A DNA stretch of 64,000 nucleotides from Roseburia intestinalis L1-82 (GTDB lineage Bacteria; Bacillota; Clostridia; Lachnospirales; Lachnospiraceae). The stretch is taken from positions 136,001-200,000 of the forward strand of contig NZ_LR027880.1 of NCBI RefSeq assembly GCF_900537995.1, in the 5' to 3' direction. Shown here piece after piece: positions 35,803 through 36,554 of this stretch (its first letter is position 1; every line of letters begins with the position of its first letter). The notes beneath the pieces were generated by a model. The model ran no database searches. It was not told the DNA's origin and saw only the letters and a list, made by a program, of their open reading frames with translations. A program made the position numbers and the translations under genes.

Positions 35803-35840
35803 AAAAAACGCAACATTTCATATAAAATGTTGCGTTTTTT
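35803..35840. repeat. Left inversion site (IRL), also a terminator-type hairpin
   Basis: Core 35808-35835: arms ACGCAACATTT and AAATGTTGCGT around the spacer CATATA. The palindrome extends outward with A5 and T5, making a perfect 16-bp stem with a T-tract on either strand. The spacer is the exact reverse complement of that in the right site (TATATG). Confidence 0.88.
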
Positions 35841-35846
35841 ATTTGC

Positions 35847-35880
35847 AATTATTATTTCGGCAGAACAAAAAGAAACTTAA
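35847..35880 (-). promoter_or_regulatory. Sigma-28 (flagellar) promoter inside the invertible segment
   Basis: Minus strand TTAAGTTT (35873-35880), 11 nt, GCCGAAAT (35854-35861). The consensus is TAAAGTTT-N11-GCCGATAA in enterics and TAAA-N15-GCCGATAT in Bacillus; the match is 7/8 for the -35, and for the -10 6/8 against the enteric or 7/8 against the Bacillus form. It now points left, away from flagellin; inversion would point it at csrA-fliC. Confidence 0.78.
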
Positions 35881-35909
35881 CCCCCAAATTTAAATTTTTT
35901 TAAATCCGT

Positions 35910-36488
35910 TCAGAAATTAATGGTATGAAAAATACTGTCCCGCTCGTCCTGAGAAATTCCCAGATAACGCTTTGTGATATAAAACGAGGAATGATTATAC
36001 AGATCCATCAGAAGAACCGGCGAAATTCCCTGTTTCCATGCATGATAGCCAAACGTCTTGCGGAGCGAATGACAGCTGACATGCGTTTCGCATAAGGTTT
36101 CGTCCGCTGCTCTGCGCACAATACGATATGCCTGGGAACGGCAGAGCGGATGCGCAGGTGTGGTGGGTTTTGAAAAAATATAATCCTCCGCGTCAGGTTT
36201 TCTTGTTTTCCGGTAATAGTCCAGTGCTTTGATAACGTGTGAATTTAAGGCAATCTCATTGACCTTTCCTGTTTTCTGTTCATGGATCAGAAGATGATCT
36301 AAGAAACAGTCTTTCTCAAAATAATACACATCTTTCCATTTTAAATTCAATACATCACTGATGCGCAATGCGGTGTAGAGCCCAAGAATGATCATCGTAT
36401 AGTTGCGGATATTCGGATGTGCAACCTCGTAATATGCAATGAAATTTTTTAGTTCGTCCTTGTCACGGATCGGCTGTGTTGTACCCAT
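35910..36488 (-). CDS. Short tyrosine recombinase (FimB/RecV-like DNA invertase)
   Basis: A 192-aa recombinase consisting of the catalytic domain only, the size of FimB/FimE and of clostridial RecV, enzymes that flip promoters. Catalytic set: Arg in GLYTALRISDVL, Lys in EQKTGKVNEIAL, HSLRKTF (H-x-x-R), NHSSFYI and the nucleophile in ITKRYLGI. ATG 36488 follows AAAGGAGT by 4 nt; the 10-residue extension to 36518 is less likely. Only ~40 nt separate the start from the right inversion site, so its promoter is probably outside, on the csrA side, where a minus-strand TATAAT overlaps the csrA start (36589-36594). Cutting at the flanking 28-bp sites is inference. Confidence 0.9.
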   Translation of the reverse strand: MGTTQPIRDKDELKNFIAYYEVAHPNIRNYTMIILGLYTALRISDVLNLKWKDVYYFEKDCFLDHLLIHEQKTGKVNEIALNSHVIKALDYYRKTRKPDAEDYIFSKPTTPAHPLCRSQAYRIVRRAADETLCETHVSCHSLRKTFGYHAWKQGISPVLLMDLYNHSSFYITKRYLGISQDERDSIFHTINF

Positions 36489-36526
36489 AATGACTCCTTT
36501 CTGCGGAAAATACCGCAAGCCTGTAA

Positions 36527-36554
36527 ACGCAACATTTTATATGGAATGTTGCAT
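36527..36554. repeat. Right inversion site (IRR)
   Basis: Arms ACGCAACATTT and GAATGTTGCAT around the spacer TATATG. Pairing is imperfect and no T-tract follows on the csrA side, unlike the left site. Confidence 0.86.

Follow-up and report, generated by a model that had tools for sequence, protein, structure and literature searches.

A predicted self-encoded invertible flagellin switch in Roseburia intestinalis L1-82 and its relatives in motile Lachnospiraceae

The flagellin ROSINTL182_08635 of Roseburia intestinalis L1-82 has been described as a 539-residue protein that begins with MVVQHNMSAM and is preceded by the ribosome-binding site CGGAGG at 14 bp, and neither a σ28 nor a σ43 promoter was found for it (consulted part of a 2013 paper, PMC3720852). 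In the 64,000-nucleotide stretch of the L1-82 genome analysed here (hereafter the window; NZ_LR027880.1, positions 136,001–200,000), a flagellin gene at 37017–38642 on the plus strand encodes a protein of 541 aa. Read from its second ATG (539 aa), it matches that description in size, N-terminus, and ribosome-binding site. From sequence comparison, we consider it very probable that the segment at 35.8–36.5 kb is a self-encoded invertible flagellin switch, in which inversion would turn a promoter toward csrA-fliC and start transcription. The present orientation, with the promoter directed away from csrA (OFF), would explain why ROSINTL182_08635 was left without a recognisable promoter in the consulted part of PMC3720852, in which the words ‘recombinase’, ‘integrase’, and ‘phase’ are absent. 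A self-encoded invertible flagellar switch had already been predicted in an earlier note on this DNA, and the prediction is now supported by the promoter P28, by 94 other loci, by three relatives in which the segment is reversed, and by core matches that occur only in the inverted sense. The sequences themselves show a site pair, a recombinase ORF with the residues shared by its relatives, a promoter match with a definite direction, and relatives in either orientation.

The segment is bounded by two 30-bp sites with a palindromic 12-6-12 organization. The left, csrA-distal site (35807–35836) is AACGCAACATTT-CATATA-AAATGTTGCGTT, i.e., two 12-bp arms around a core at 35819–35824. The right, csrA-proximal site (36526–36555) is AACGCAACATTT-TATATG-GAATGTTGCATT, with its core at 36538–36543, and forms the inverted partner of the left site. 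The two cores are exact reverse complements, so that the window locus has the two inverted sites with identical crossover cores expected of an invertible phase switch, and the 713 bp between them (35825–36537) are predicted to invert on the basis of the comparison with relatives. The sites had been proposed as 28-bp elements (35808–35835 and 36527–36554), and both their inverted match at 26 of 28 positions and the exact complementarity of the cores hold; between the 28-bp right site and csrA at 36594, 39 bp intervene. With up to three mismatches allowed, the site pattern occurs at only two places in the 4,493,348-bp single-contig genome, while the reversed control occurs at none. A small inverted repeat, TGCGGAAAATACCGCA, is located at 36502–36517, in the gap that separates the recombinase start from the proximal site; it was not seen by eye in the relative L077.

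Between the sites lies the gene of a catalytic-domain tyrosine recombinase of 192 aa (35910–36488, minus strand, stop codon included), as had been claimed and as is borne out by the ORF list, Pfam, and alignment. The protein scores 89.7 bits against Pfam Phage_integrase (PF00589, cut-off 27.1), which places it in this superfamily. Its start at ATG 36488 (MGTTQPIR) is conserved and common to most relatives; the ORF listing gives a longer reading of 202 aa from a TTG start, in which the integrase domain spans residues 19–187. Arg42, Lys72, His140, Arg143, His166, and Tyr175 are invariant in 27 of 27 aligned sequences, the window included, and are presumably the catalytic residues (Arg, Lys, His-x-x-Arg, His/Trp, Tyr motif). 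Among chains of known structure, XerA and a XerC-like recombinase score best against the protein. It falls outside the NCBIfam models of FimE (PRK09871; 45.0 bits, cut-off 222) and FimB (PRK09870; 36.5 bits, cut-off 221). A scan for σ70-type promoters returned 6 candidates against 7.2 expected, and no promoter of the recombinase gene's own was found by it. Elsewhere in the window, an integrase-like gene on the minus strand (28702–29704) extends over two overlapping ORFs, with a SAM-like N-terminal part and a Phage_integrase C-terminal part, and is apparently broken.

A σ28 (FliA/SigD)-type promoter sequence, P28, is located 17 bp inward of the left site (35854–35880, minus strand) and is directed away from csrA-fliC. 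It has the form TTAAGTTT-N11-GCCGAAAT, in full TTAAGTTT-CTTTTTGTTCT-GCCGAAAT. Compared with the σ28 consensus TAAA-N15-CCGATAT (as given in the consulted part of PMC3720852), P28 reads TAAG-N15-CCGAAAT and agrees at 9 of 11 positions, as a σ28-type promoter should; most relatives have CCGATAT in place of CCGAAAT. The genome encodes FliA (268.4 bits, cut-off 189.6). With up to one mismatch, the promoter pattern has 24 genome matches, compared with 8 of its reversed control, and the single P28 match is therefore weak taken alone, although its position is settled by the relatives described below; the only perfect genome copy of the pattern lies upstream of another flagellin. A scripted exchange at the cores moves P28 to the plus strand at 36482–36508, facing csrA and 85 bp before its ATG.

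The left site is enclosed by a hairpin with T tracts on both sides (35798–35845), a predicted terminator for transcription from P28 in the present orientation. As RNA, this hairpin has a folding energy of −23.2 kcal/mol (z −7.7) and is followed by a T tract. A terminator scan lists it with 20 pairs, the region containing 3 terminator-like sites in total against 2.8 in shuffles. At the right site, no T tract is present toward csrA, and after the scripted inversion the proximal site retains a 10-pair hairpin with no T tract. This asymmetry extends to the relatives: of 71 OFF loci, 64 have at least five T within seven bases on the outer side of the distal site, compared with 13 of 71 for the proximal site toward csrA. 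The 71 rows leave out L069, an OFF locus that a weak chance match made look ON in this comparison, and also L091 and L126, where the contig stops at the distal site.

The first gene after the switch (36594–36854, plus strand) encodes a CsrA paralogue of 86 aa. It passes the Pfam CsrA cut-off (57.2–57.3 bits against 27) but fails those of the NCBIfam equivalogs TIGR00202 (20.5 against 70.1) and NF002469 (22.7 against 73). The genome contains two CsrA matches, the switch-side one at about 57.3 bits and another at C1:4012531-4012686 with 92.3 bits. By this profile comparison, the CsrA beside the switch is a divergent second paralogue. Since it is divergent and its C-terminus is extended, switchable flagellins may be accompanied by a CsrA of their own. 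The fliC leader folds no better than its shuffles (z −0.36) and so gives no structural support for CsrA binding to it. The flagellin gene that follows is one of 5 Flagellin_N matches in the genome. Behind it, a terminator-like hairpin with a T tract was recognized by eye at about 38681–38713 on the plus strand; the terminator scanner did not list it. The next gene (38731–39906, plus strand) encodes the flagellin lysine-N-methylase FliB (NF038110, 203.2 bits, cut-off 85), which probably lies outside the switch transcript because it sits behind this hairpin. All three genes that the earlier note had placed to the right of the segment, csrA, flagellin, and methylase, were thus recovered with Pfam and NCBIfam, with the refinement that a hairpin parts fliC from fliB.

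In the proposed mechanism, the window recombinase would act on the two flanking sites and σ28 would read P28. In the present orientation, transcription from P28 would stop at the distal site, in its hairpin and T tract (OFF). After inversion, it would cross the proximal site, free of a T tract, into csrA and fliC (ON), and the CsrA paralogue would tune translation of the flagellin encoded behind it.

Relatives of the locus were picked by similarity to csrA or to the recombinase and are not independent by descent. In the genus, the recombinase (E ≤ 1e-25) is found in 28 of 62 genomes and a csrA relative (E ≤ 1e-8) in 25 of 62. In a sample of 397 genomes of the family, for which up to 8 candidates per genome were scored, the recombinase (E ≤ 1e-30) is found in at least 40. 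The genus set comprises 37 stretches, the window's own included, one of which (L098) has no csrA match. The GTDB-record set consists of the best 80 of at least 556 confirmed relatives, 67 of them with csrA. Together, these sets give 103 csrA loci, i.e., 86 after removal of 17 duplicates. A further family set of 40 stretches, 20 with csrA, adds 17 new loci, as L209, L210, and L215 repeat earlier records. Recombinase matches that have no csrA nearby (13 of 80, e.g., L110, L117, L119, and L131, and 20 of 40) were left out of the orientation counts.

The 86-locus set comprises 78 OFF loci, 3 ON loci (promoter toward csrA), and 5 with no call, and the 17 new family loci comprise 14 OFF, 0 ON, and 3 with no promoter match. 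The total for these Lachnospiraceae csrA loci, again 103, is 92 OFF, 3 ON, and 8 with no clear call, so that the architecture with a called orientation recurs in 94 loci besides that of the window. A site pair was detected in 77 of the 86 loci. Directly inside the distal site, a promoter with at most two mismatches faces outward in 73 of these 77 and inward in none, and at the proximal site it faces csrA in three (L077, L143, and L152); in shuffled windows, such placement occurred 0.14 times on average and twice at most. The promoters of the 73 relatives keep TNAA, CGA, and the 11-bp spacer almost invariably, partly since the scan required them. The predicted switch is well supported, occurs widely among motile Lachnospiraceae, and is almost always assembled in the orientation predicted to be OFF.

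Some loci deviate in detail. L162 and L177 have short segments, in which the distal promoter also falls inside the proximal window. L096 has an outward promoter with its best site pair farther out, and L070, L079, L105, and L142 have an outward promoter with no detected site pair. No switch was called in five of the 86 loci, namely L090, L092, L094, L095, and L147 (a short contig); at up to three mismatches, a promoter match is directed toward csrA in L092 and away from it in L095. In L220, L228, and L230, the sites adjoin csrA-fliC with no σ28-type promoter at two mismatches, and another promoter may be used. L091 (G034 contig 93) stops exactly at the distal site, as would be expected if the assembly broke where a site occurs in both orientations, although a repeat could have the same effect.

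Of the 95 called loci, only 3 face csrA: Roseburia sp. SUG84 (L077/L113), Lachnospiraceae RGIG3040 (L143), and Lapin-021 bin26 (L152), each of them assembled from a metagenome and belonging to a species other than that of the window. The ratio of 92 OFF to 3 ON is one between species. When aligned to the OFF loci, the segments of the ON loci match mainly on the minus strand (64 minus vs. 6 plus, 58 vs. 4, and 52 vs. 8 alignments), whereas every alignment of their csrA-fliC side is on the plus strand (80, 77, and 77 vs. 0). The upstream side of the three ON loci gave no alignments to the OFF loci. Five OFF control loci gave 57 to 62 plus-strand against 5 to 9 minus-strand alignments, and every minus match is a locus of class 2, in which the recombinase gene itself is turned. 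The promoter ends 89, 111, and 113 bp upstream of the csrA ATG in the three natural ON loci. Two of the three have YLCI in place of YLGI after the catalytic tyrosine. This substitution was considered as a cause of locking and rejected, because the cysteine occurs in 17 of 157 scanned loci, several of them OFF (L149, L150, and L165).

The cores provide a further signature of inversion. With the two sites of each locus found independently by palindrome search, the two cores are reverse complements of each other without mismatch in 55 of 76 OFF loci, and in none of the 76 are they direct copies; the figure of 55 compares with a mean of 2.4 and a maximum of 8 for random core partners (2000 permutations). 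The distal cores called include 49 distinct ones, some of which differ in called length only. The cores thus vary across loci and yet match inside a locus, as strand exchange between two sites demands. Differences in site calling are among the causes for the 21 of 76 loci with no exactly matching cores in this automatic test; indeed, the window locus is one of the 21, its proximal spacer having been called two bases longer. The switches of G066 have cores that differ by eye (e.g., CATAATA, CTTAATG, and CTTAATA), from which no claim is drawn, because chance sharing would also be rare.

The cassettes are divided into two classes. In the main class, an OFF segment has its recombinase gene running away from csrA and sites of GCAAC type. 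Identity to the window recombinase in this class is 57–65% in the genus set, with 52% for L085, and falls to about 50% in other genera. In class 2 (L063, L064, L067, L074, L087, L088, L097, L158, and L173), an OFF segment has its recombinase gene pointing toward csrA, and its sites are GTAACAC-like, except in L097, where they are GCAACAC-like. The place and direction of the promoter are unchanged in both classes; what stays constant is how the promoter is directed with respect to the sites and csrA, rather than the direction of the recombinase gene. Three loci of G066 (L071, L073, and L075) have segments of about 230–280 bp that keep sites and promoter, with no recombinase match in the retrieved stretches; relatives of the recombinase lie on other contigs of G066, and the recombinase would therefore act in trans. 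In L093, the recombinase gene is directly outside the segment. In L086/L127 (Roseburia faecis M72, NZ_CVRR01000011.1), a segment of about 2 kb contains the recombinase and a 338-aa ORF. L065 (G010) has its recombinase in two pieces but retains its sites and outward promoter, possibly a locked switch or an assembly error.

Among the alternatives, the one that survives best, itself improbable, is that the segment once inverted and is now effectively locked OFF, the flagellin being silent or read from an unrecognised promoter. The 92 OFF orientations among 95 called agree with this, and the G010 locus shows that sites and promoter can be kept despite a broken recombinase. Yet, the window recombinase is intact with all shared residues present, its sites and cores match exactly, and ON loci exist. 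Moreover, promoter and cores are maintained in many relatives, whereas drift would erase them.

It is very unlikely that the outward P28 serves the gene past the distal site, with two alternating targets or little role for the flagellin. The window gene in that position (DUF6062) is on the strand that P28 would read, but the hairpin and T tract stand between the two. Across 68 OFF loci, the longest ORFs past the distal site are spread over 57 similarity clusters and have no common direction (40 one way, 28 the other), which indicates that there is no conserved outward target, whereas csrA and fliC are constant across the same loci. One five-member cluster of these outward ORFs is the recombinase itself, located outside a short segment. 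Just as little credence is due to the idea that no inversion takes place and that the sites serve only as terminators, or as the attachment sites used by a small integrating element: the left site is terminator-like and the recombinase is in the phage integrase superfamily, but terminators need no locus-variable cores with an inverted match inside the locus, excision requires direct sites (0 of 76), the short segments lacking a recombinase (L071, L073, and L075) keep sites and promoter, and the segment is reversed in the ON loci.

The preferred reading, an invertible flagellin switch, bears similarity to three known systems. In Salmonella, fljB is read by σ28. As in Hin/fljBA, an invertible segment with two flanking sites would adjoin a flagellin and carry both a recombinase gene and a promoter, although Hin is a serine recombinase acting on hix sites with Fis (consulted part of PMC9368917), whereas the Roseburia locus has a tyrosine recombinase and palindromic 12-6-12 sites. 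The locus also differs in having a csrA paralogue placed between its promoter and its flagellin gene, and a repressor of a second flagellin was not seen there. The Hin parallel with another recombinase class had been drawn before and is apt, in that promoter and recombinase gene both lie in the DNA predicted to flip, beside the flagellin. Since the enclosed gene encodes a tyrosine rather than a serine recombinase, the window switch is not a member of the Hin class, though predicted to work alike.

In Clostridioides difficile, likewise one of the Clostridia, the small tyrosine recombinase RecV inverts the Cdi4 DNA upstream of flagellar genes (consulted part of PMC5386303). That segment, however, measures 154 bp, has 21-bp repeats, and forms part of the leader of the early flgB operon, and thus switches the whole apparatus, and RecV also inverts other switches (PMC5386303 and PMC5903667, as far as consulted). 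The Roseburia segment, in contrast, carries its own recombinase gene and would flip a late, σ28-type promoter of one flagellin operon. With its 192 aa, the window recombinase also resembles the FimB/FimE-type invertases of E. coli fim, which have about 200 aa and a catalytic domain only, although its similarity to the FimB and FimE profiles is weak and far under the cut-offs. The fimB and fimE genes of E. coli lie outside the invertible element, and the target is fimbriae. No description of the present arrangement in Lachnospiraceae was found among the papers listed in literature searches, which lay mostly outside subscription journals; the invertible-promoter survey of Jiang et al. 2019 may list the locus. 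A search for the terms Roseburia and Lachnospir- gave none in PMC11892184, PMC5903667, PMC10939037, and PMC11868660.

Among gut antigens, the flagellins of Roseburia and related bacteria are prominent. Collectively, we lean toward the view that motile Lachnospiraceae hold reserve, phase-variable flagellins beside fixed ones, each cassette with a recombinase, a flippable σ28 promoter, a recombination site that also acts as a terminator depending on orientation, and a CsrA paralogue dedicated to it. Nearly all of these cassettes would be kept silent in the population, and rare cells would show another filament antigen. If the switch operates as predicted, it would parallel the Salmonella Hin switch as an independent counterpart that relies on another recombinase class, and would account for flagellin genes seemingly devoid of promoters, as reported in the consulted part of PMC3720852. 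A switch that hides and reveals single flagellins would change how flagellin expression is read from genomes, and selection on commensal flagellins would become directly measurable through the orientation of the 713-bp segment in existing metagenomes.
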